NCBI GenBank assembly: GCA_902500755.1
Contig: CABVRV010000017.1
Coordinates: 1 to 49,247, forward strand
Length of the DNA stretch: 49,247 bases
Reading direction: 5' to 3'
Source of the DNA: an uncultured Nitrospira sp.
GTDB lineage: Bacteria; Nitrospirota; Nitrospiria; Nitrospirales; Nitrospiraceae
Shown: piece after piece, positions 2,562 to 44,634 of the stretch
Numbering within the stretch: the first letter of the stretch is position 1
Layout of the letters: every line of letters begins with the position of its first letter
The notes under the pieces: model-generated
Seen by the model: the letters and a program-made list of their open reading frames with translations, nothing else
Told to the model about the DNA's origin: nothing
Databases searched by the model: none
Position numbers and translations under genes: made by a program

Positions 2562-5285
<2,724 letters not shown>

Positions 5286-27073: not shown

Positions 27074-28900
27074 ATGATCCCTGACACGCTTCGTTCCAAA
27101 CTCGACCATCTTCCGCGCCATCCAGGTGTGTATTTGTTCAAGAACTCACAAGGCGAGATTCTGTACATTGGGAAGGCGGCTGTGTTGGCCGATCGTATCC
27201 GATCCTACTTCCTAAAAGGCACGGACCATTCCGCTAAGACCAGCCTGCTCGTCGGCCAGGTAGCCGACCTGGAGACAATGGTGACCAGGTCCGAGCTCGA
27301 AGCCCTGATACTGGAGAGCAACCTGGTCAAGCGCCACAAACCACGTTTCAACATCGTGTTGAGGGATGACAAGCAGTACCCCTATGTGCGACTGCCAATC
27401 AAGGAAGATTTTCCACGACTCTCCATCGTGCGTCGCGTCCAGAAAGATGGGGCTCTGTACTACGGCCCCTATACGCCGGCGAACGCCCTGCGCGAGACCT
27501 TGAAAGTGATCAAACACGTCTTCCCCCTGGCCACCTGCACCATCGACATCAACGGAACTGCCGAACGGGCCTGTCTTGAGTTTGAAATCAAGCGCTGCAT
27601 GGCCCCCTGTACCGGGAACCAATCAAGGGACGAGTACCATCAGATCGTCAAACAGGTCCGCCAATTTCTGGAAGGGCGCGACCGCGAGCTGCTCGACGAC
27701 CTTCGCGCTAAAATGGAAGGGGCGGCGGAACGGGAGGAATTTGAGGAAGCGGCACGCTTGAGGAATCGTCTCTTCAAGATCGAACGGATGCTGGAGAAGC
27801 AGCGTATTACCCAAACCTCTGCCACCGATCAGGACGTGCTTGGGCTTGCACGGCGAGGAGCCGCCGTGGACCTCCAGATCCTGTTCGTGCGGGGAGGATT
27901 GCTGATCGGACGGAAGGACTTCTTCTGGCCCCAATCAGCGGATTCCTCAGATCACGAGCTCATTCGGGCCGCGATCGAACAATTTTACAACAAAGATGGC
28001 CAGCCTCCTCGAGAAGTCCTGGTCCCGGCCGACTTGGAGGACGTCGCGCTGATCGAACAATGGCTGTCTGAAAAACGCGGAGAGGCCGTCCGCGTCCTGG
28101 CACCCGTACGCGGGGCAAAGCATGAGTTGGTCTTGCTGGCTGAAGAAAATGCGGCGTCGGCCGTCGCAGATCATCTACGGGATGAAGAACTCGGGCGGCA
28201 AGCCTGTGAAGAGCTCAAACGGTTGCTCCGTCTTGATCGCCCCCCTCGTCGGATTGAAGGATTCGACATCTCAAATACGATGGGAAACCAATCTGTCGCT
28301 TCGATGGTCGTGTGGGAAGCCGGAGAAATGAAAAAGTCGGACTACCGTCGATTCAAAATCCAGACGGTCCAGGGGGCCAATGACTTTGCCAGCATGAAAG
28401 AAGTGGTCATGCGTCGATACCGAGGGGCCACCGGTGAACCAAATCGAACCACGGAAGATTTGGCTCGGCCGGATTTAGTCTTAATCGATGGAGGACTCGG
28501 GCAACTGGCTGCTGCTATTGAAGGGCTGAAGGAAGTTGGACGACAGGACCTCCCGATTCTTGGTTTGGCCAAGGCTCGAGGAGAGAAGCAGGAACGGGTC
28601 TTTCTTGCTGGAAGAAAAAACCCGATCTCTCTCACCGCTACCGCCCCAGCCACTCACCTGTTGCAACACATCCGCGATGAAGCTCATCGCTTCGCGATTA
28701 CATTCCATCGAAAACTTCGTGGTCAATCACTGGTCACCTCCAAACTGGATCAGGTCATCGGAATCGGAGAGATTCGGCGCAATCAACTTTTGAATCGGTT
28801 CGGCAGTCTAAACAAGCTGATTTCAGCCAGTGACGACGCTCTTCAGGAAGCCGGGCTCAGTGCTGAAACTATCATGAACCTTCGTAAGACTCTATCCTAA
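27074..28900 (+). CDS. uvrC: Excinuclease ABC subunit C
   Basis: 608 residues, standard length. Makes both incisions in UvrAB-directed nucleotide-excision repair. N-terminal GIY-YIG nuclease (GVYLFKN, ILYIGKA), Cys cluster region (CTIDINGTAERACLEFEIKRC), UVR motif around AEREEFEEAARLRNRLF, RNase-H-like endonuclease (EGFDISNTMG, LVLIDGGLGQL) and C-terminal helix-hairpin-helix (IGEIRRNQLLNRFGSL). 92 bp after the DapF-like gene; convergent with the FadL-like gene, only 14 bp apart. Confidence 0.97.
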   Translation: MIPDTLRSKLDHLPRHPGVYLFKNSQGEILYIGKAAVLADRIRSYFLKGTDHSAKTSLLVGQVADLETMVTRSELEALILESNLVKRHKPRFNIVLRDDKQYPYVRLPIKEDFPRLSIVRRVQKDGALYYGPYTPANALRETLKVIKHVFPLATCTIDINGTAERACLEFEIKRCMAPCTGNQSRDEYHQIVKQVRQFLEGRDRELLDDLRAKMEGAAEREEFEEAARLRNRLFKIERMLEKQRITQTSATDQDVLGLARRGAAVDLQILFVRGGLLIGRKDFFWPQSADSSDHELIRAAIEQFYNKDGQPPREVLVPADLEDVALIEQWLSEKRGEAVRVLAPVRGAKHELVLLAEENAASAVADHLRDEELGRQACEELKRLLRLDRPPRRIEGFDISNTMGNQSVASMVVWEAGEMKKSDYRRFKIQTVQGANDFASMKEVVMRRYRGATGEPNRTTEDLARPDLVLIDGGLGQLAAAIEGLKEVGRQDLPILGLAKARGEKQERVFLAGRKNPISLTATAPATHLLQHIRDEAHRFAITFHRKLRGQSLVTSKLDQVIGIGEIRRNQLLNRFGSLNKLISASDDALQEAGLSAETIMNLRKTLS

Positions 28901-28914
28901 TAGCGGCGAACGAC

Positions 28915-30276
28915 CTAGAACAGATATCGCAAACTGAATGTTCCTAAATGCACGAAGGCATGATAGGTCCCGTCGACGGTCGGATTAAGATTCCCTGTGA
29001 CGGTCCGCGATTCATAAAACCACTCCTGATAGGCCAGATCGAGTCCGATCCCTTTGGGCCACAATGCCGACTGTCCACTGCAAGGGATTAACCCGAGGAA
29101 TCGTCCAGTTCCTTTACAGAGAAATCCCACACCCAAAGAGAGGGTATGAGCAGGCAACGAAATCGTGCCGGGATTAAAGGTCCTATCTGGAACCGGATCC
29201 TCCGTATACGTATATCCTGACCGGACTGCGACTTCCCAATGCGGCAGCCACGGGGGATTAAACCACTTATACTCAGTTCCAAGGGCGATCACCGGAACGT
29301 TCTTCCACTCTCTCGGCTGAGGAATCGTAGCCCCACCGGCAAGGCGGACGTCAAGATTCCTGTGCAAACTCCATCCCACATACTCGACGTCGAGTTCGAC
29401 TTTCCACTCCCTCTCACTGGTACGCACCGGCCAGATGGCCACCGCACCGGTAAATATTTGCGGTAGCACAAGGTCGGCAGAACCATCGGCGATCTTGGCT
29501 CCATTGACCAAAAGTGCGCCATTTAAGGGTACAACCGCCTGCGAGCGATAGACCGCCCCGATGGACATGATCGGTTTACCGGCTCTATTTCTCATGGGAA
29601 AATAGAGCAGGCTGGCGGTCACACCAGCACCGGTCCCCGTGCCGTTCAGTTCGACCGACGCTCCGGCTGGAATTCCAAGGGTTCCTGCACTGACTTGCTT
29701 CTGTTCCCCATGCCCCTCACCAAGAAAGCTCGCGAAAGTGTAAATATCGGCGCTTATCCCCACAGATAGATCGTCGTTGATTTTGTACGCAATCGTGGGT
29801 TTGATGGCGAGTAGTGGGAGTGCGGCCGACGTGATGGCGGTATTGAAAGGGATGTCCATGGGGTAACGAGTGTTCGAACCGAATGAAGCGTTCGCTCCTA
29901 TTCCGATGGTCAGAGAGGAGAGATTCATTGCACCAAGCGCTTTGAGATTGGCGCTCACGTAAAAGTGACTGGGCAGGGGCGTGGAAACACTGTCGCCAAG
30001 ATCTCCACGGCCATCGATTCCGGTTGGCCCCTTGAACTTGATCGAACCGCCCATGATAGTTGTCCCAAAATGACTCTGAATTCCTTTAACCTGCGTCAAA
30101 CCTGCGGGATTGAAATGGACGGCTGACGGATCGTCAGCCTGGGCCACAAATGCGTTCCCCTGCCCAGCCGCCGCCGCTCCTTGAGGTTGGAATCTTATCG
30201 CCTGTGCAGAGGCATCCACTGAGTCCATCAATATTACTAGACAGCACCATGCGGATAATCTGTAGAATTTGACCAT
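28915..30276 (-). CDS. FadL/OmpP1/TodX-family outer-membrane transport protein
   Basis: About 453 residues. Signal peptide to about residue 25 (SVDASAQA). The mature N-terminus IRFQPQGAAAAGQGNAFVAQADDPSAVHFNPAGL is the FadL signature, which forms the hatch region; the remainder is beta-barrel, ending with aromatic FSLRYLF. The family imports hydrophobic molecules. In a genome that makes acyl-HSLs it could in principle move acyl chains, but the neighbouring luxR is only divergent, so this is speculation. ATG 30276 preferred over TTG 30291. Confidence 0.88.
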   Translation of the reverse strand: MVKFYRLSAWCCLVILMDSVDASAQAIRFQPQGAAAAGQGNAFVAQADDPSAVHFNPAGLTQVKGIQSHFGTTIMGGSIKFKGPTGIDGRGDLGDSVSTPLPSHFYVSANLKALGAMNLSSLTIGIGANASFGSNTRYPMDIPFNTAITSAALPLLAIKPTIAYKINDDLSVGISADIYTFASFLGEGHGEQKQVSAGTLGIPAGASVELNGTGTGAGVTASLLYFPMRNRAGKPIMSIGAVYRSQAVVPLNGALLVNGAKIADGSADLVLPQIFTGAVAIWPVRTSEREWKVELDVEYVGWSLHRNLDVRLAGGATIPQPREWKNVPVIALGTEYKWFNPPWLPHWEVAVRSGYTYTEDPVPDRTFNPGTISLPAHTLSLGVGFLCKGTGRFLGLIPCSGQSALWPKGIGLDLAYQEWFYESRTVTGNLNPTVDGTYHAFVHLGTFSLRYLF

Positions 30277-30374
30277 ACTCAGGCTCTGCAAATGGCAAAC
30301 GGAACTAGTATGATACTGATCACGTTCCCAAGACTAGGTACATTCGGCTAGATCCATTTTATTCTGAGGTGTCC

Positions 30375-30466: not shown

Positions 30467-31261
30467 ATGGACACCGCGATCCTTCCTTTCCCTGCTCATA
30501 TTTTTGAAGAGTCATCCAAGACCGACCTTCAAAATTTTATCGAGGTCATGCACTATGCTACCCTAGCTGAGACTCCCCAAGACGTGAAAAATGTCCTCAT
30601 ACGAACCAAAAAATTTCTCCCGTTCGACCGGCTGATCGGAGGGCTTGTTCGATTAGGTGCTGATGGTGCATTCGAGGGGTTTTCCGACGTTCTGAACGTC
30701 AACTTCCCGCAAATATGGCTTTTTCAATACTGGAAGAATGGATATGGGAAAATTGATCCGGTTCTCCATGCCTTGGTGCGATCCCAAAAAACCCAGGTGT
30801 GGAACCAAGTCTATGCCGATGTAAAATCGGATAAAGAAAGGGAGTTTGTAGAAACTGCAACGTCATTCGGACTTAGTGACGGCGTGACGGTTGGCTCGTT
30901 GGATCCATCCTGCGGAGTCACGTCATTCTTCGCATTTGCCGGAGGCGAGCCCGCTCAGCATGGCCAGTATGTGAAATTTGTAGATTATCTTGGACAACAC
31001 CTCCACCTAGCCCTTATGAGATCCACGTCAAAGACTGCGTGCGTGACCAGCAAGTGCGTCAACAAACTCTCTCCAAAGGAAGTCACAATCCTGAACTGGA
31101 TGAAAGATGGGAAAACTAATTGGGAAATTGCGCAAATCACGGGTGTCAGCGAACGCACGATACGGTTCCATGTGGAGAGTATCTTCTCCAAACTAGATGT
31201 GACGTCTAGAACCCAAGCGGTTGCTTTCGCCGTTCAACACGGGCTTCCCAACTTGGCTTAG
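30467..31261 (+). CDS. LuxR-family quorum-sensing transcription factor
   Basis: 264 residues. N-terminal autoinducer-binding domain (about 20-185) keeps the four acyl-HSL pocket residues in exact LuxR/TraR spacing: Trp84, Tyr88, Asp97 (IDPVL) and Trp112. The C-terminal LuxR helix-turn-helix (about 198-258) starts LSPKEVTILNWM and includes WEIAQITGVSERTIRFHV. It should bind an acyl-homoserine lactone and then DNA; the palindrome at 32175-32198 is the obvious target. Convergent with luxI (51 bp between stops). Numbering from ATG 30467. Confidence 0.93.
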   Translation: MDTAILPFPAHIFEESSKTDLQNFIEVMHYATLAETPQDVKNVLIRTKKFLPFDRLIGGLVRLGADGAFEGFSDVLNVNFPQIWLFQYWKNGYGKIDPVLHALVRSQKTQVWNQVYADVKSDKEREFVETATSFGLSDGVTVGSLDPSCGVTSFFAFAGGEPAQHGQYVKFVDYLGQHLHLALMRSTSKTACVTSKCVNKLSPKEVTILNWMKDGKTNWEIAQITGVSERTIRFHVESIFSKLDVTSRTQAVAFAVQHGLPNLA

Positions 31262-31312
31262 GCTGAGCTGTACCATTCAAACTCTCGCCGCACTGATCAC
31301 GGGGCATTAAGA

Positions 31313-32080
31313 TCACACAGATGCATAGCTCTGCGCTTCCCCCGGTACACCTATGGTCGATAGGACCGTCCAGCATGGGGTTAATCTCATACGCTCCGCT
31401 GTTGTCCGCTTTTTGATTTCCCCTTGTGTCGTCGTGACAGTCGACATCCATTCCATGACCGCCGGTCGTTTCCTACCAAGAACCGCTTCGCATCTCACGA
31501 TGTCCATCATGGCAGCAATCGAGAGAGTTCCAGCCGGAGGGAGTGCGACCGGCGGACCCAGCGGACTGCATGGAATGCCTATGGCATTAAGCACATTAAA
31601 GAAGCGATGGTCGACTTCCAAGTAGAAATATCGGACATCATGTTCCATCGCCCAATGGTAAGCGCCCTTGATAAGGATATGCATAAGTCGAGCGGATAGC
31701 CCCTTATCCTTGATGTCCGGATCAATAGCTAGCCTTGTAATCTCCGCCGTGTCAGGCTCCTTTCTCATGGTGTGATCCGGCGGTAACAGCAGTCGTAGAT
31801 CCTGTTCAAGCATGAAAGGTCCGGACGAGGGCAAGAGCCTTGCCAGGCCGTGAAGCTTGCCCTCATGATCTACAAGTCCAATCGATGAACCCCACAGGTC
31901 ATACATGTCCATCTCTTGGCCATCCTCTGTCGGTGGCACCCACCTCAGTTTGTCTGCAAATACTCGATGCCGCAATTGGTAGGCCTGGGTTAGCTCCTCT
32001 TGTGTGTCGAGCGTCTTAACGAGAAATTCTCCTTCGTAAAACGCAACTCCTCTTTTCTCAGAAATTACTGAGACTGGCAT
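31313..32080 (-). CDS. LuxI-family acyl-homoserine-lactone synthase
   Basis: 255 residues. The LuxI conserved residues are all present with the family's spacing: Arg37, Phe41, Trp47, Asp58, Asp61, Arg81, Glu113 and Arg116 (LRHRVFADKLRW, EMDMYD, ARLLPS, AEITRLA). The enzyme joins S-adenosylmethionine to an acyl carrier to make an acyl-HSL. The C-terminus runs about 40-50 residues beyond the usual LuxI end and has no recognised domain. AAAGGAGG lies five bases before ATG 32080. A lux-box-like palindrome sits about 95 bp upstream. Acyl-HSL production is established for Nitrospira. Confidence 0.93.
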   Translation of the reverse strand: MPVSVISEKRGVAFYEGEFLVKTLDTQEELTQAYQLRHRVFADKLRWVPPTEDGQEMDMYDLWGSSIGLVDHEGKLHGLARLLPSSGPFMLEQDLRLLLPPDHTMRKEPDTAEITRLAIDPDIKDKGLSARLMHILIKGAYHWAMEHDVRYFYLEVDHRFFNVLNAIGIPCSPLGPPVALPPAGTLSIAAMMDIVRCEAVLGRKRPAVMEWMSTVTTTQGEIKKRTTAERMRLTPCWTVLSTIGVPGEAQSYASV

Positions 32081-32174
32081 GACTGCCTCCTTTCAACGTG
32101 AGTTAACTAGGGCCGAATGGGCAGGCCAAATATCTAATGAAGGAGGCAGATGGTTCCACCATAGAGCACAAACG

Positions 32175-32198
32175 TCACCTGGCGGGTCCGCCAGGTGA
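32175..32198. promoter_or_regulatory. lux-box-like palindrome between luxI and the divergent kinase gene
   Basis: A perfect 24-bp palindrome whose core ACCTGGCGGGTCCGCCAGGT (32177-32196) matches the lux-box form ACCTG-N10-CAGGT. On the minus strand it would overlap a -35 region, with TATGGT (32163-32158) as a possible -10, giving the usual LuxR-activated geometry for luxI. On the plus strand it lies about 100 bp before the kinase start and no good -10 is obvious. Binding by the LuxR at 30467 is inferred. Confidence 0.8.
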
Positions 32199-32296
32199 TT
32201 TCCTGGTCACCCTGCGGTAAAAGGTGTCGTTATTCCTGCTGGACTTGAATTCGCTAACAATTCAGTAGGCAGCTAACACAAAAGGAGGACGCGAAC

Positions 32297-33100
32297 GTGA
32301 CTGAGGGAAAAGCAAGATTTCAGTTGTTGAATGGGGGGCTTCGGTCGATGTCAGCGCTCTCACTCTCCCAGTCAGTTCAGCCAGTGAAAGAATCCTTTCA
32401 CACCAGTCGTTTGGAGCCTTGCGCAGGTGAACTCACGACCGTATTCAAGGCGACTGAGCAGCGGTTGCACAGGCTTTTAGAAGATCGCAGCCGTATCGGT
32501 CGAGACCTGCATGACTGCGTACTGCAGTCCCTGTATGCCATTGGGCTCAGTATTGAAACTAATCGAAAAATCAGGCAAGATAATAATCAGGAAGACAAAT
32601 CATCTACTGGACGAATGATTACTCAGATCAACCAACTGATCCATGAGGTCCGGAGTATGATCCGTGAATTAGAGTCCGGCACCGTTCAGGAATTTGATTT
32701 ATCTTCTGAGCTGAATACGTTGCGCACGACCTATGAGCAAACAGGCCAACTACGCGTAAAGTTGGAGCTTCAACGCACCGCTCTTGAAGTGCTCACGAAT
32801 GAGGAGGAGCGGGAGATTCTGAATATTGCACGGGAGGCCCTGAGCAATTGTGCCCGCCATGCCCATGCATCTTGCGCGACGGTCTCTGTACGCATGAAAG
32901 ACACGAGGATTCGAGTCGCGATACAGGACGACGGGATTGGATTCTCCCTGGCCGTCGGACAGCCACGTGGATACGGGCTCACCAACATGGAATCTCGGGC
33001 CAAAAAACTCGGAGGATCATTACGCGTTCACTCCAAGCCCGGGGGAGGCACGCACGTGACGGCAGAATTTTCATTAGAACCTATACTGACTTCCGTATGA
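32297..33100 (+). CDS. Soluble histidine kinase, HisKA_3/NarX-type
   Basis: 267 residues with no membrane helix and no recognisable sensor domain. The dimerisation/phospho-acceptor box RIGRDLHDCVLQSLYAIGL has His72. The ATPase part shows the N-box REALSNCARHAHA, G1 box DDGIGF and G2 GYGLTNMESRAKKLGG. About 55 N-terminal residues are unassigned. GTG 32297 follows AAAGGAGG by eight bases. Its stop overlaps the regulator's ATG, so the pair is coupled. The lux-box-like palindrome upstream suggests population-density control. Paralogous to the kinase core at 36820-37420. Confidence 0.92.
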   Translation: MTEGKARFQLLNGGLRSMSALSLSQSVQPVKESFHTSRLEPCAGELTTVFKATEQRLHRLLEDRSRIGRDLHDCVLQSLYAIGLSIETNRKIRQDNNQEDKSSTGRMITQINQLIHEVRSMIRELESGTVQEFDLSSELNTLRTTYEQTGQLRVKLELQRTALEVLTNEEEREILNIAREALSNCARHAHASCATVSVRMKDTRIRVAIQDDGIGFSLAVGQPRGYGLTNMESRAKKLGGSLRVHSKPGGGTHVTAEFSLEPILTSV

Positions 33101-33777
33101 AACAGCCACAAACCAGCATCGTTCTCATTGATGATCACGAGATGGTCCGTAGAGGCCTGCGTGCCCTGCTTCACCTCGAACCGGATATGACGATTGTGGG
33201 TGAGGCTGGAACTGTCGCGGATGGTGTCGCGCTCGTTGAGCGCCTCACCCCGCACATGGTGCTGCTGGACGTGAAACTTCCCGATGCCACCGTCACGGAG
33301 GCCTGCCGACGGCTTCTGGCTGTCGCGCCAAAGCTTCGTATTCTCGTCCTCACCAGCTATGCCGAAGACGCGACAGTGATGGCTGCCGTCCAGAACGGAG
33401 CCCATGGCTATGTCCTCAAGGATGTGCGAATGGATGACCTCATTCGTGCCATTCGTACTGTGGCCTCTGGCCATGGCTACCTCGACCCACGAGTGACCCA
33501 GCGGGCGCTTCATTGGATCCGCACCAGTTCGCACCTGGGCGTGAATTCCCAGGGTGTCACTCGATTGTCGCCTCAAGAACGTCTCATTCTGCCCCTGTTG
33601 GCGGAAGGGAAGACGAACAAGGAGATCGCCGGCCATCTCCGCTTGAGCGACAAGACGGTAAAAAACTACCTGGCAAATATCTTCGATAAGCTCCATGTGA
33701 AACGCCGAACGGAAGCCGTTGCCTGGTTCATGAAAGAAAGCCATGTGCCTTCCCTTACGCGGAGCCCAAAGCTTTAA
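33097..33777 (+). CDS. NarL/FixJ-type response regulator
   Basis: 226 residues. Receiver domain with acidic pair in LIDDHEMV, phospho-Asp in MVLLDVKLPD, Thr/Ser switch VLTSYAED and Lys in YVLKDV. C-terminal LuxR-type helix-turn-helix: LSPQERLILPLLAEGKTNKE, then [17 protein letters not shown]. Start ATG 33097 overlaps the kinase's TGA (ATGA); the longer upstream frame is not used. Cognate partner of the preceding kinase; targets unknown. Confidence 0.93.
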   Translation: MKQPQTSIVLIDDHEMVRRGLRALLHLEPDMTIVGEAGTVADGVALVERLTPHMVLLDVKLPDATVTEACRRLLAVAPKLRILVLTSYAEDATVMAAVQNGAHGYVLKDVRMDDLIRAIRTVASGHGYLDPRVTQRALHWIRTSSHLGVNSQGVTRLSPQERLILPLLAEGKTNKEIAGHLRLSDKTVKNYLANIFDKLHVKRRTEAVAWFMKESHVPSLTRSPKL

Positions 33778-33969: not shown

Positions 33970-36900
33970 ATGAATTCTCCGTCTGGCATCGACGGCATCC
34001 TATCCGCTGAGCTGACTCGTTTGCGGCAGCAGGTGCATGAGCTACAGCAGGCCTTGGCTCAATCCGAACAGGACCGTCGACTTGCACAAGCATCTGCGCT
34101 TGAGGCAGCCCACGTCGGAACGTGGGAGTGGGAAGCCGATACGAACCGTGTCCGTTGGTCGGTGGAAACCGAACAAATCTTCGGCCTACGTCCGGGATCG
34201 TTCGTTGGAACATACGAAGGATTCTTTGCGCTCGTCCATCCCGACGATCGCCAACGGCTCAGCACTGCCATCACGACGGCCGTCGACGAGCGGACCTTCT
34301 ACCTCATTGAACACCGCATTATCACTCCACATGGGGACACACGATGGGTGGTATGCCGTGGCCGCGCTCTTTGCAGGGAAAACGAATCGCTATCAGGCAT
34401 GGTCGGGACGGTGGAAGACATCACCTCGCGCAAGCAATCAGAGCTGGCTCAGCAAGCCATGCACGAAACGCTCGAAGCCCATGTGCGCGAGCGAACAGCA
34501 GGGCTAGAACGGGCCGTCATTGAGCTCAAACAAGAAGTCGCGCGGAGACAGCAGGCGGAGTCAGCGCTCAAGGCAAGTGAGCAGCGGTATCAATCCCTTT
34601 ATGAACACAATCCCTTCATGTATTTCACCCTCGCCTCCGACGGGATCGTGTTGTCGGTGAATCGTTTTGGAGCGGAGCAACTCGGGTACCAAAAAGAGGA
34701 CCTTATCGGTCAATCGATTTTGGAGGTATTCGATTTGAGTGATCGCCGACCCGTGTTGGAACGGCTTACGGCTTGCGTAGCAAGCCCGTACACGCTGTGG
34801 GAATGGGAAACTCAAAAGATCCGAAAAGATGGAACCCGGTTATGGGTGAAGGAGCGAGCGAGAGCAGTTCACGATCATACGGGGATGATCCTCGTGCTGG
34901 TGGTCTGTGAAGATATCACGGAACGAAAGCGGACTGAAAAACAGCTGCAGGAAACCTCTCGGCTACTCCGTACCCTCGTGAATGAGTCGGCGCTCCCACT
35001 TGTCAGCCTCGACCGAGAAGGTCGAGTCCTCAGTTGGAATCAAGCGGCAACCCACCTCTTCGGCTGGTCTGAAGAGGAAGTGCTCGGACGTGAACTCCCC
35101 TATGTGCAAGCGGGTGAAGAGGCCATGGCTGATGCCTTGTGGGAAAGGGGGATACGCGGAGAATTGACCAGCCCTATAGAATTGCGTCGTCAACGCAAGG
35201 ACGGTCAAGTGCTCGACCTTCTCCTCTGGCCCGTCTTTGTCTACGACGAGTTCGAGCAACTTTCACTTGCCGTCGGCCTCTATGTGGATCAGTCCGACCT
35301 CAAACGAGCGGAGGAAGCCAAGCTCATGAGCGAAGCTCGTCTCCGCTCATTCTTGAATGCGCTCGATGACCTCGCCTTCGAATTCGATCAAGATGGACGA
35401 TATCTCAACGTCTGGACTTGTAACGAGGGAAATCTGCTCCTACCTAAACTCGAGCTCCTCGGGAGGCGCATAACCGACGTCTTCGAACCTGAAATCGGCG
35501 CCCAGTATGTGGAAACGATTCGCCGTGTCATCGCAACCGGAAAAACTGCCGCAGTCGACTACAGCATGTTACTCAGTGGGAATAGGCGACACTTTTCAGG
35601 GATTCTCACGTACATCCCAGGGAGTGAAGGAGGCGTGGGCACCGTCGGCTGCATCATGCGCGATATGACTGAGAGCCGCCTCATCGAGTCACACGTTCGA
35701 GAAAATGAGGCTCGCTGGAGAGCGCTGTATGAGCATGCAGGAGTAGGGATCGCTCAGCTGACACTTGATGGTCAGTTTCTCCGAGTGAATCCCCACGTAT
35801 GCGAGATCCTAGGTTACTCATCGGAAGTGATGCTCGAACGGAATCTTCAAGACTTGACCCACCCAGACGACATCCAGGCGAATCTCGCCTATCTCGCTGA
35901 ACTGCTGGAAGGAAAGCGTCACTCGTTCTCGATGGAAAAGCGCTATCGCCGGGTCGACCACACCTGGGTGTGGGTCGACTTGACCGTATCTCTCGTGCAC
36001 ACCAGCTCCAGCGATCAGGCCTATTTGATTGCGGTCATTCAGAACATCGACGATCGGAAGCGCTCCCATTCGCTTCTGCAAGCAGCCATGAATTCCGTCG
36101 CAGACGGCCTTCTCATCGTCGATCGACAGGGGAAGGTGACAAGCGCCAATCAACGTTTCTTGTCACTTTGGAACATCCCTGATGAATTGGCCGACTGCCA
36201 AGACGACGACGCCTTGCTTCTGTCCGTTATGGACCAATTACAAGATCCGCAAGCCTTCTTGGACAAGGTCCGGGAACTGTACGCACGCCCCGCCAATGAA
36301 AGTTTTGATGTGTTGCACTTCAAGGACGGCCGAATCTTCGAGCGTCACTCACGACCACAGATTCTCGATAGAGAAATCGTGGGCCGTGTTTGGACGTTCC
36401 GAGACGTCACCAAACACAAGCGAGCCGAAGAAGCGTTACGCGCGAGCGAACTCAGGCTCCAGCGCTTCGTCGCTGAGGCCCCGGTCGGTCTGTGCATCCT
36501 CGATGAGAACTGGCGCGCAATCAGCACCAACAGGGCCATGTGTGAACTGACGGGGTACGAAGAGGAGGAGATTATCGGAAGCACCTATGCCCTGTACACG
36601 CACCCTGAAGATCTTTCCGCCAACATCATACTGACCGATGAATTCTTTCGACGCGTTCGATCGAACTACACCTATGAAAAGCGCTATATCAGGAAATCTG
36701 GAGAAATCATTTGGGTTCTGGTCAAAGCGACACGTATCGAGCTATCCGGCCACGAAGGGCCGCTGCTCCTGGCCGCAGTTCAAGACATTACCGAGCGCAA
36801 GCTCGCGATTGAAGAGCGAGAGCAACTGAGTCGTGACCTTCACGACAATCTGCTGCAAGCGCTGTATGCGGTGGGCATGCAACTGGAGGCGGGAAAGCTG

Positions 36901-37431
36901 GCCATGAAACATTCCGCTCGCCGATCAAAACTGCATATGAGTCGAGCGATTCACCAGCTGAACAATCTCATGGTCGATGTTCGCCGCTTTATCGCCTTGT
37001 TGATAAAGCGCACTCCCGGGGAAGTTGATTTTGGACTGGCGCTCAATCAACTCATCATTTCGACGACAGGAACCGGTGATACAGCGCCGGAACTGGACAT
37101 CAAGAGCCCCGTCCTTTCTTTCATTACTCCGCAGCTGGCCGAACAACTTCTCAATATCGTGCGAGAGGCCTTGAGCAATAGCATGCGCCATGCGCACGCC
37201 TCCCGTCGATGGGTACAGCTGACCTTAATCGACAACTCCATCCGTTTGGTCATCGGCGACAATGGTCTCGGCTTTGTCCAAACCCGTAGGCGACCCACCG
37301 GTCATGGGCTCAGCAACATGGCTGCTCGGGCGCAACGTGTATGTGGCACCTTTACGCTTCAAAGCACTCCGAGTCGAGGAACGATCATTACGGTTGACGT
37401 TCCATTGAAGAAGGGAGCCGTCTATGAATAA
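33970..37431 (+). CDS. Seven-PAS histidine kinase, HisKA_3-type
   Basis: 1153 residues, no membrane helix visible. After a short coiled coil (about 15-40) come seven PAS/PAC units starting near residues 43, 202, 329, 453, 577, 699 and 822; several end in the PAC-like DITERK or DVTKHK. The kinase box [17 protein letters not shown] has His958, followed by N-box [13 protein letters not shown] and GDNGLGF. Seven sensory domains suggest integration of several intracellular or redox/ligand cues; no cofactor can be told from sequence. ATG 33970 has GGAGG ten bases upstream. Overlaps the next regulator by eight bases. Confidence 0.93.
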
Positions 37432-38107
37432 GGCTCCATCGATCCGAGTGGTCATCGTGGATGATCACGAGGTGGTGCGCATCGGACTTCGGGCAGTCCT
37501 CAATCTGACACCGGGGATGAACGTTGTGGGTCAGGGCATGCGGATGGAGGATGCCAAAAAACTTTGCTTCCGGTTCAAACCCGATCTTATTCTCCTCGAC
37601 ATCCGTTTGCCTGATGGCAGCGGAGTGGACGCGGCTCGTGAAATTCTTGTGAAATGTCCACAAACTCGCGTGCTCTTCCTGACGAGCTTTGCCGATGATC
37701 ATACGGTGCTCGAAGCGATTCTCGCCGGGGCTCATGGGTACATCCTGAAAGACATCGCCTCTCAGGCGCTCATCCGCGCTATTCGTGGAGTGGCCGCCGG
37801 CCAGGTGTTCATCGACCCTCGTTTAACAGGCCAAACATTGGGATGGCTGAAGAATGTGTATCGCGAACCTGGGCATTCGAAGCGTCCGCTCCTTTCTCCC
37901 CAGGAGCAACGTTTATTACCGTTGGTCGCGCAAGGGCTCACGAACAAAGAGATCGCTCAAGACCTGCGTCTTAGCGAAAAGACCGTGAAGAACTACCTCG
38001 CCAATATCTATTCCAAATTGAATATTGGACGTCGATCGCAGATTGCGGCTTTCTATGCAGGAAGTTTCAAAAGCTCAGGCCGGCATTTATCCATAGATGC
38101 GGACTAG
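37424..38107 (+). CDS. NarL/FixJ-type response regulator, partner of the seven-PAS kinase
   Basis: 227 residues. Receiver with [11 protein letters not shown], phospho-Asp in [13 protein letters not shown], Thr/Ser FLTSFADD and Lys in [29 protein letters not shown] and [16 protein letters not shown]. Closely resembles the regulator at 33097-33777 over its whole length, so the kinase/regulator cassette is a tandem duplication. Starts inside the kinase's last codons (8-base overlap), hence coupled translation. Confidence 0.94.
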
Positions 38108-39823: not shown

Positions 39824-41391
39824 TTACTGAGCGTGAGCGTCTGAACCACCCACTCCGGCAGCAGCCTTGATTGCTTCGACGGTCAAAGGCTTTTCTAAAT
39901 ACCCGCTGATCTCAAACGGCATGCGTGAGGGAGCACCACTGCATGAAGAATCGTCCCGGAGCCCAATAACGTGAAGTTGTGAGAAGCGCTCTTTGACCTG
40001 ACGCACGCAGGCAAGTTCTGGCGCTGATCGAAACAATTCGATTTCCGCAATTAAGAGATTCGGAGCCAATTCCCGCCCAAAATTCTGGAGTTCCTTAGCC
40101 GCCTCAATACTGTGAACTTGATACCCGAGACGCTCCAATGTTCTCAGAAGGACCGCGCGACTGACGGCTTCTTTCACGCACACCAAGGCACAGAGAGACT
40201 TTGCTGGGGAGCCACCGTCAACGACGTGATCAAGTGAAAGGTCAAACCAAAATGTGCTTCCCTTCCCGATCTCACTCTTGAACTCCATCGCCCCGCCCAT
40301 GAGCTCGACAAGTTGCTTGGCGAGCGCCAACCCCAGACCCATCCCACCATATGCACGTCGATAGGACCCATCAGCTTGCACGAACGGTTGAAACAATCGA
40401 TCGACATCGAACTTTTCAATCCCGATCCCGGTATCTCTCACGCTAAATCGGATAGGGTTGGCATCTTTCCCTTGTTGTATCCTCTCTCCGCTCGTCGACT
40501 GAGGACAAGGGTGGACCTGCACACAGATCTCCCCGCGTTCAGTGAATTTCACGGCGTTGCTAAGGAGGACCCTGAGAAGGCGTCCGAGTCGAGCCGGATC
40601 GCCATAGAGTTTCGACGGGACTGCGGCTGCAATTTCGTAATGGAGATAGATGCCCTTCTCTTTGATCCGTTCCTTGAATAGTTCTAGATTACTCTCTATG
40701 ACCGCTTTAACTGCAAACTCTTCTCGACCGAGCGTGACCCGGCCTGATTCTAATTTAGAAAAGTCCAAAATATCGTTAATGATGTCCAACAACGCCTTGG
40801 CGGAGATTTTAATCGTTTCTGCGCAGTCTCGTTGTTCTGGTGTCAGGTCCATCTCAAGCAACAATTCATCCATGCCGATGATCCCGTTCATCGGAGTTCG
40901 AATTTCATGGCTGATGGTGGCAAGAAACTCTGACTTGAGCCGCGCACCCTCAAGAGCGGCATCTCGAGCCTGAACTAACTTGACCTGACTATCACGTAGG
41001 TCCTGCATGGCCTGGCCGGCTCGTAACATGTAACGGACCCGATGTCCCAGCAAGAGACCATTGATCGGCTTGACGATAAAATCAGTCGCTCCAACATCGT
41101 ACGCCTGGGTAATCGACTGATAGTCCTCCAGTCCTGTCATGATCAGCACGGGCGTATGCTTGCCTTCCGGTAATCGCCGTAACTCGGCACAGGCCGTGAA
41201 CCCATCCATCTCCGGCATCATGATGTCCAGCAGCACCAGATCAGGGTGATGCCGGATGAACGACTCCACACCAAGTCGCCCATTTTCTGCTTCTTCGACC
41301 GACCAGCCGGACTGTTCAAGCGCCTCACGAGCCAGAAGCCGGGCGACAGTATCATCATCGACGATGAGAACCGTTGGGCGACGCTCGTGTG

Positions 41392-41395
<4 letters not shown>
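39824..41395 (-). CDS. Hybrid histidine kinase: REC - HisKA - HATPase - Glu-substituted pseudo-receiver
   Basis: 523 residues, cytoplasmic. N-terminal receiver (about 8-125) is complete, with IVDDDTVA, Asp57 ([13 protein letters not shown]), Thr and Lys109. HisKA follows with His163 (SHEIRTPMN) and ATPase boxes [15 protein letters not shown] and GGMGLGLA. A second receiver-like domain (about 390-510) has lost its acidic pair and carries Glu451 where the phospho-Asp should be (LLIAEIELF), though EKP is kept. ATG 41395 overlaps the upstream kinase's TGA, so the two proteins are made together; REC1 is probably fed by that kinase's HPt. Confidence 0.92.

Positions 41396-44634
<3,239 letters not shown>

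Follow-up and report, generated by a model that had tools for sequence, protein, structure and literature searches.

A lux box between luxI and a sensor-less histidine kinase in Nitrospira, and its possible role as a fixed port for exchanged luxR-luxI pairs

The luxR-luxI locus and its lux box

In a 49,247-nucleotide stretch of DNA from an uncultured Nitrospira sp. (contig CABVRV010000017.1 of GenBank assembly GCA_902500755.1; hereafter the window), genes of the acyl-homoserine lactone (AHL) quorum-sensing families lie beside a two-component system, with a candidate binding site for the receptor, a lux box, between them. luxR (30467–31261, plus strand, 264 aa), the gene for an AHL receptor and activator, and luxI (31313–32080, minus strand, 255 aa), the gene for a predicted AHL synthase, are convergent and both intact. 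In Pfam searches, LuxR matches Autoind_bind (PF03472, 66 bits) and the helix-turn-helix (HTH) family GerE (PF00196, 69 bits), and LuxI matches Autoind_synth (PF00765, 60 bits), all above the cut-offs; luxI is the sole PF00765 match in its own genome. The window LuxR aligns over positions 23–261 to CviR, its top match among solved structures, and in this alignment the positions that we take to be family-critical are present (W/Y/D/P/W and G in the AHL domain, E..L..G in the HTH). The same holds for LuxI, in which R/F/W/E/D/D, R, F, E and R, again presumed to be the critical positions, are found in alignments to 3p2f, 1ro5 (LasI) and 5w8a. By its domains, luxR is a LuxR-type AHL receptor gene, with AHL-dependent DNA binding predicted, and luxI, by domain and residues, is a LuxI-type synthase gene with a predicted acyl-homoserine lactone product.

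Divergently from luxI runs HK1 (32297–33100, plus strand), which encodes a soluble histidine kinase of 267 aa with HisKA_3 and HATPase_c domains. It is followed by RR1 (33097–33777, plus strand), a NarL-type response regulator with Response_reg and GerE domains, and the two reading frames overlap by ATGA at 33097–33100. All four domains lie above the Pfam cut-offs and identify a HisKA_3 kinase/NarL regulator two-component system; HK1 was aligned to DesK/VraS. No Pfam match precedes residue 64 of HK1 at an E-value of 0.001. An earlier, sequence-only reading of this stretch had described luxR and luxI as convergent and in possession of every family-critical residue, and the kinase as soluble and without a sensor domain; both descriptions are borne out by coordinates, Pfam and alignments. 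At the N-terminus of HK1 (32297–32350) stands a short RFQLLDGG-like motif that recurs in many homologues and could be a so far unrecognised element for input or docking.

Midway between luxI and the divergent HK1/RR1 lies the lux box ACCTGGCGGGTCCGCCAGGT (32177–32196, without strand), the only ACCTG-N10-CAGGT in the window; it is a 20-bp palindrome with CTG-N10-CAG, the form by which lux boxes are defined. The 24-bp palindrome around it (32175–32198) had been called perfect: its form and place stand, its perfection does not, as 11 of the 12 pairs match and a central G/T mismatch remains. This mismatch is perhaps the cause why an inverted-repeat search of the window listed no inverted pair. By a hand estimate, about 0.05–0.1 such palindromes are expected by chance in 49 kb, so that the palindrome alone is only moderately unlikely and the reality of the box rests on its conservation. 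LexA boxes are also of CTG-N10-CAG form, an identity that was dropped because of the linkage of the palindrome to luxI. The genome of the window has a single full-match box, its next-best site carrying two mismatches; a search for a wider regulon with up to three mismatches gave 18 forward against 15 control matches, so that no further LuxR site can be claimed in this genome.

Behind RR1 follow paralogues of both genes, a multi-PAS HisKA_3 kinase (33970–37431, plus strand), whose C-terminal part is 37% identical to HK1, and the NarL-type regulator RR2 (37424–38107, plus strand), 49% identical to RR1. The suggested extension of AHL control to this seven-PAS pair has no support in the window, where no lux box precedes the multi-PAS kinase. 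Further on, two large minus-strand open reading frames (ORFs) at 39824–44634, hybrid histidine kinase-like by eye, make this a dense signalling region.

Conservation, duplication and promoter geometry of the box

A total of 147 relatives, the genome of the window included, were searched; luxI homologues were found in 68 and none in 79. From 66 of these relatives 68 loci were taken, which with the window gives the 69 luxI loci examined; one genome with a weak partial luxI match (G139) is counted among the 68 luxI-positive relatives and left out of the loci. Boxes were scored as matches over 16 fixed positions. A strict box was defined as ACCTGGCG-N4-CGCCAGGT, with the same pattern read backwards as control. 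Conservation of the palindrome in relatives with the same gene order had been set beforehand as a test, and the box upstream of luxI passes it with a score of 15–16/16 at 67 of the 69 loci (16/16 in 58, 15/16 in nine). One of the two misses (L049) is cut off by the end of its contig, 51 bp short of the luxI match; at the other (L097) luxR and luxI are kept, the genome has no HK1 and the locus no RR1. The strict box is present in 57 of the 147 relatives, every one of them luxI-positive (57/68), in none of the 79 without luxI, and its control in none of the 147. When one mismatch is allowed over 14 fixed bases, at least 104 of the 147 match and the control becomes common as well, which leaves the strict form as the informative one. 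At 63 of the 69 loci an HK1 homologue lies within 1.1 kb of luxI on the far side of the box, and uvrC, an outer-membrane-protein-like gene, luxR, luxI, kinase and regulator are all above the score cut-offs at 47, the others including contig ends.

When 84,980 species were scanned, each represented by one genome, at least 118 stretches matched the box. Among the matches listed, 61 are Nitrospirota by title (one of them titled Nitrosospira isolate CMX), of which 53 carry luxI at more than 100 bits, as against none of the 57 other stretches; the box as a general bacterial motif was rejected on these counts. The gene order is the same in L229, a record titled Nitrospira lenta, where the kinase is 41% identical and HisKA_3 by Pfam. 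There and in L161 (by Pfam), as well as in L206 and L181 (by homology), the divergent kinase overlaps a second, PAS-domain kinase of 398–399 aa, which in L161 is followed by a NarL-type regulator; the partner behind the box-linked kinase thus varies between lineages. Two more distant genomes have other signalling genes, by Pfam, opposite luxI across the box: a NarL-type regulator in L036 (G081) and a GAF/PAS HisKA kinase in L042 (G130).

The number of boxes depends on the distance between luxI and HK1. The starts of HK1 were inferred from alignment, and the distances may therefore be off, notably in L046, L059 and L062. With gaps of up to 245 bp, exactly one box is present in 42 of 42 loci. 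With gaps of 342–1012 bp, a box lies 95–126 bp from the kinase start in 18 of 18 loci, and 16 of these have a second box 103–142 bp from luxI, three of them scoring 14/16; the two single-box loci of this class retain the kinase-side box only. The three loci L046, L059 and L062 (gaps of 304–319 bp, kinase starts uncertain) have one box each, and an ORF of 70–139 codons lies inside the gap in five of the 18 long-gap loci. As the kinase-side box is present wherever the gap is long, the kinase appears to have its own claim on a box.

Bases with promoter-like spacing are conserved on both sides. In the window, a putative luxI −10 element, AACCAT (32150–32155, minus strand), is preceded by a TG at 32157–32158, as in an extended −10, and a putative kinase-side −10 element, TAAAAG, lies at 32218–32223 on the plus strand. 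When the loci are anchored on the box, the kinase-side TA peaks sharply at +22 (49 of 63 loci), with one case at +18, none at +19 to +21 and 14 at +23, and the luxI-side TG stands at +19 in 41 of 63. In the two-box loci, HK1-proximal boxes have the kinase-side TA in 15 of 16 cases and the luxI-side TG in two of 16. The −10-like bases on both sides would place the box centre about 42–43 bp upstream of each predicted start, near −42.5, the classic position in class II LuxR promoters; proteobacterial LuxR boxes are of CTG-N10-CAG form and likewise lie near −42.5.

Candidate boxes were also seen outside the luxI loci. Weaker ones occur in three genomes (G081-C3, G080 and G053); that of G080 (L242, 3001–3020, 15/16) is followed after 46 bp by a PilZ-domain ORF (3067–3444, Pfam 48 bits), possibly an extra LuxR target linked to cyclic di-GMP (c-di-GMP). 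In G052 (L239, 3001–3020) a strict box is followed, after about 150 bp, by a 390-aa ORF without a significant Pfam match.

Exchange of the luxR-luxI cassette and a LuxR stub

To the left of luxR lie an outer-membrane-protein-like gene (OMP; 28915–30291, minus strand, named by eye), which forms the left flank of the exchange site described here, and beyond it a uvrC-like gene (27074–28900). Distances and trees were computed for the 47 loci with all six genes above the cut-offs. Pairwise distances of LuxR and LuxI correlate with r=0.85, and those of kinase, regulator, OMP and UvrC among each other with 0.78–0.92, whereas correlations between the two groups are 0.11–0.37, above chance by permutation in four of the five tested, the exception being LuxR-UvrC. 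In approximately unbiased (AU) tests the LuxR and LuxI data reject the clade to which the flanking genes assign the window (p-AU 5e-90), and the flank data reject the clade to which the cassette assigns it (p-AU 3e-45), for clades that were chosen after the distances had been seen and with quick trees, without a mixture model and with some long branches.

Pairwise DNA alignments show where the discordance begins and ends. In L080 and L060 a 1.9-kb luxR-luxI block in which no alignment exceeds 60 bits is flanked left and right by DNA that is 91–92% identical; between the window and L076 the alignment stops at about 30195 and restarts at about 31709, inside luxI, and between these points only a single match, of 167 bp in the HTH region of luxR, is left. 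L080-L081, the control pair, can be aligned across the luxR-luxI region without a break. Four pairs were aligned, counting this control, and they place the joint either within luxI or upstream of it. The box itself was rejected as the recombination joint, as both halves of the spacer follow the kinase more than LuxI: in 31 of the 42 short-gap loci the luxI-box and box-HK1 segments correlate with HK1 at r 0.63 and 0.75, and with LuxI at 0.36 and 0.39. Discordance, breakpoints and spacer together indicate that luxR-luxI is an exchanged cassette, while the box and the kinase pair belong to the site. The mean divergence of the LuxR HTH is 0.18 and that of the AHL domain 0.40, as would fit receptors that have a box in common and differ in their signal.

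Among 80 genomes of the genus, 17 are without luxI. Five of these (G021, G026, G030, G033 and G044) retain kinase, regulator and a box of 14–15/16, with the box centre 107–115 bp from HK1, and in all five a LuxR-like stub of about 180–187 aa (the start in G021 is uncertain) lies directly upstream. The stub HTH is 69–76% identical to that of the window LuxR, as compared to 74–79% for five other full-length LuxRs. The AHL-binding core is absent from the stub in the alignment, and none of the five stubs matches PF03472 at E-values up to 1. The ratio of non-synonymous to synonymous substitution rates is about 0.14–0.21 (six pairs among four of the five), so that the stubs look kept by selection. 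Of the genus genomes that have LuxR or a stub, 66 of 68 also have HK1 (above 200 bits), against two of the 12 that have neither, uncorrected for kinship; one of the two cases in which HK1 is missing beside LuxR or a stub lies at a contig end. The stub genomes have a second LuxR-type gene (L234, 2710–3537, with equivalents in L233, L235, L236 and L237) with 27–33% identity, which lies near uvrC where uvrC is on the stretch; that of L234, which alone was scanned, gives a marginal autoinducer-binding match (23.4 bits, cut-off 23).

LuxR-type genes without luxI are known as LuxR solos (PMC4338825), and, in a genome survey, luxI is reported in 36% of analysed Nitrospirales genomes and LuxR without LuxI in lineage I (PMC12342949). 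The stub resembles both in that luxI is absent. It falls outside the definition of a solo, as a recognised AHL-binding domain is missing as well; HTH, box and kinase target are kept.

Proposed circuit and its alternatives

A bidirectional lux box is already known from related Nitrospira. In 2021, 61 candidate promoters of a sludge Nitrospira were cloned and studied by reporter assay and electrophoretic mobility shift assay (PMC8553950). Two of them, the promoters of nspI and of a gene divergent from it, which have the intervening box ACCTGGCGGTTCCGCCAGGT in common, were activated by LuxR with C8-homoserine lactone (C8-HSL), 14-fold on the luxI side and 196-fold on the divergent side, through the one shared box; the other 59 gave no response, except that one of them reached 1.9-fold when a sigma factor was added, and binding of LuxR to the box required RNA polymerase. 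LuxR-dependent activation in both directions and binding are thus demonstrated for a relative (PMC8553950). The NspI/NspR1 locus resembles the one in the window in its shared 20-bp box, in the similar spacing (81 + 20 + 125 bp) and in that LuxR with C8-HSL activates both directions. It differs in that the divergent gene is named a GGDEF/EAL protein, and the accessible text reports no comparison of targets, box duplication, exchange or stub.

We propose that AHL-bound LuxR would bind the single lux box and activate transcription both ways, leftward of luxI, as feedback, and rightward of the operon of the sensor-less HisKA_3 kinase and the NarL regulator, from a symmetric arrangement with the box centre about 42–43 bp from either start. 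As the genome has no second full-match site, the kinase-regulator pair, its dose set by LuxR, would pass on most of the quorum response. The locus would act as a port, in which box, promoter and kinase pair are fixed and the luxR-luxI pair is exchanged between species; where AHL synthesis is lost, a LuxR of which scarcely more than the DNA-binding part is left may still maintain the port. Activation of luxI and HK1/RR1 by LuxR from the shared box, in a port with exchanged luxR-luxI, is the reading that we consider probable. The sequence-only reading, in which acyl-HSL feeds back on luxI and may switch on the kinase, is partly supported, with firm support for its anatomy: box and kinase are linked beyond adjacency by the 18 kinase-side boxes of the long-gap loci, the promoter-spaced bases and the retention of both in luxI-less genomes, while AHL control of HK1, the start sites and the relay of the response are inferred.

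Several observations weigh against this proposal. The genomes are related by descent, so that the counts are not independent events. Two strict boxes lie outside the luxI locus in the 57 genomes (G052 and G081, the latter as G081-C2), degenerate LuxR sites elsewhere in the genome are conceivable, and a third AHL-responsive promoter with a poorer box, described in PMC8553950, speaks against a single target. In the five stub genomes the −10-like element (TATGAT/TATAAT, nearer the consensus) lies at +24 instead of +22. The luxI-proximal boxes of the two-box loci still have the kinase-facing TA in ten of 16 cases, for which tandem duplication is the likely reason, as both boxes of L074 share an identical downstream 34 bp.

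The strongest alternative, which we nonetheless regard as unlikely, is that the box is the operator of a regulator other than LuxR, for instance RR1 autoregulating its own operon and luxI. The joint loss of box, HK1 and RR1 in L097, where luxR and luxI stay, would fit an RR1-bound box, and so would two further genomes in which a strict box precedes HK1 and luxI is missing, and which also speak against a strict tie of the box to LuxR: RSF6 (L161), whose genome yields no LuxR match beyond the HTH, and RSF8 (L149), where the box is near a contig start and the best LuxR hit has 28% identity; in RSF48 (L118), the third such locus, luxR and luxI are present elsewhere in the assembly. Against this stand the lux-box form of the sequence, the restriction of strict boxes to luxI-positive genomes among the 147 relatives, the activation from and binding to such a box by a Nitrospira LuxR (PMC8553950), and L036 and L042, in which the box faces other signalling genes while luxI and luxR remain.

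About as unlikely is the idea that the divergent target is lineage-specific, GGDEF/EAL in the sludge organism and a kinase here, and that the general output is c-di-GMP and not the relay. It draws on the annotation of the divergent gene in PMC8553950 as a hypothetical GGDEF/EAL protein, a point that also counts against a conserved kinase target, and on the PilZ-domain gene behind the 15/16 box of G080. In G056, a genome whose box is identical to ACCTGGCGGTTCCGCCAGGT, the divergent gene is HisKA_3/HATPase_c by Pfam, from which we suspect that the GGDEF/EAL label reflects a difference of annotation; the HK1 homologue within 1.1 kb at 63 of 69 loci, and the lack of GGDEF/EAL among the subset of divergent genes scanned by Pfam, also speak against a lineage-specific target.

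We give somewhat less credit still to a box that serves luxI alone, with the kinase pair as a mere neighbour by inherited linkage. A single box in a short gap, as at 42 of 69 loci, would be enough for luxI feedback, and close relatives share gene order by descent, but in the long-gap loci the box is at HK1 in 18 of 18 and is the sole one in two, the kinase-side promoter bases are conserved, box and kinase persist in the five luxI-less genomes and in RSF6 and RSF8, and the divergent promoter was the stronger one in PMC8553950. That luxR and luxI merely evolve fast at a fixed site, without exchange, is very improbable: with mean distances of 0.38, 0.47 and 0.38, LuxR, LuxI and HK1 do diverge more than the other three genes, but speed alone would preserve the flank pattern, which the cross-group correlations and AU tests contradict, and would not leave the 91–92% identical flanks of L080 and L060 around a block that does not align.

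A possible port for interchangeable signals

In Gram-positive pherotype loci (comQXPA, agr), signal and receptor genes are exchanged together between conserved flanks. The Nitrospira locus resembles them in this joint exchange and differs in that their signals are peptides, whereas here an AHL synthase and a cytoplasmic receptor are exchanged and the kinase pair is not part of the exchanged block. With CviR/CviI and LuxR/LuxI of proteobacteria it shares the receptor and synthase families; in contrast to these, it has one full-match box in the genome, a fixed port with an exchanged pair, and a two-component target. QscR of Pseudomonas aeruginosa is likewise a LuxR-type receptor, reported to act globally via a single linked operon (PMC6113619), but it is an orphan receptor, whereas Nitrospira has a full luxR-luxI pair and a kinase/regulator target. 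Earlier accounts of the kinase as a target, of cassette exchange or of the stub were not found in the open-licence literature searched. The statement that linkage of the AHL circuit to a two-component cassette was not known to be described has to be narrowed: the bidirectional Nitrospira lux box was already reported in PMC8553950, with a divergent gene under a GGDEF/EAL name. New are the conservation of the kinase target, the box duplication, the cassette exchange and the LuxR stub, which, together with the sequence, conservation and geometry of the box, are established here.

Nitrospira are major nitrite oxidisers and complete ammonia-oxidising (comammox) bacteria. C8- and C12-HSL have been reported for other members of the genus, and the role of their quorum sensing in nitrification and fitness was called unclear (PMC8553950). 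A single conserved kinase-regulator target would make this role directly testable via the RR1 regulon. As the receptor and signal genes are swapped while switch and relay stay, the relay is probably what Nitrospira use cell-density signals for. The larger finding would be the port, one promoter and relay with interchangeable receptor-signal pairs; for a fully modular version, which takes up a different luxR-luxI pair from species to species and can lose its signal altogether, with a ligand-free stub left to drive the same relay, we hold the balance to be even. If it is true, species change their chemical language without rewiring the response, the exchange of receptor and synthase at a fixed port would be the AHL counterpart of the Gram-positive pherotype loci, and the stub would be a natural case of a signal receptor that lost its ligand pocket yet kept its wiring.

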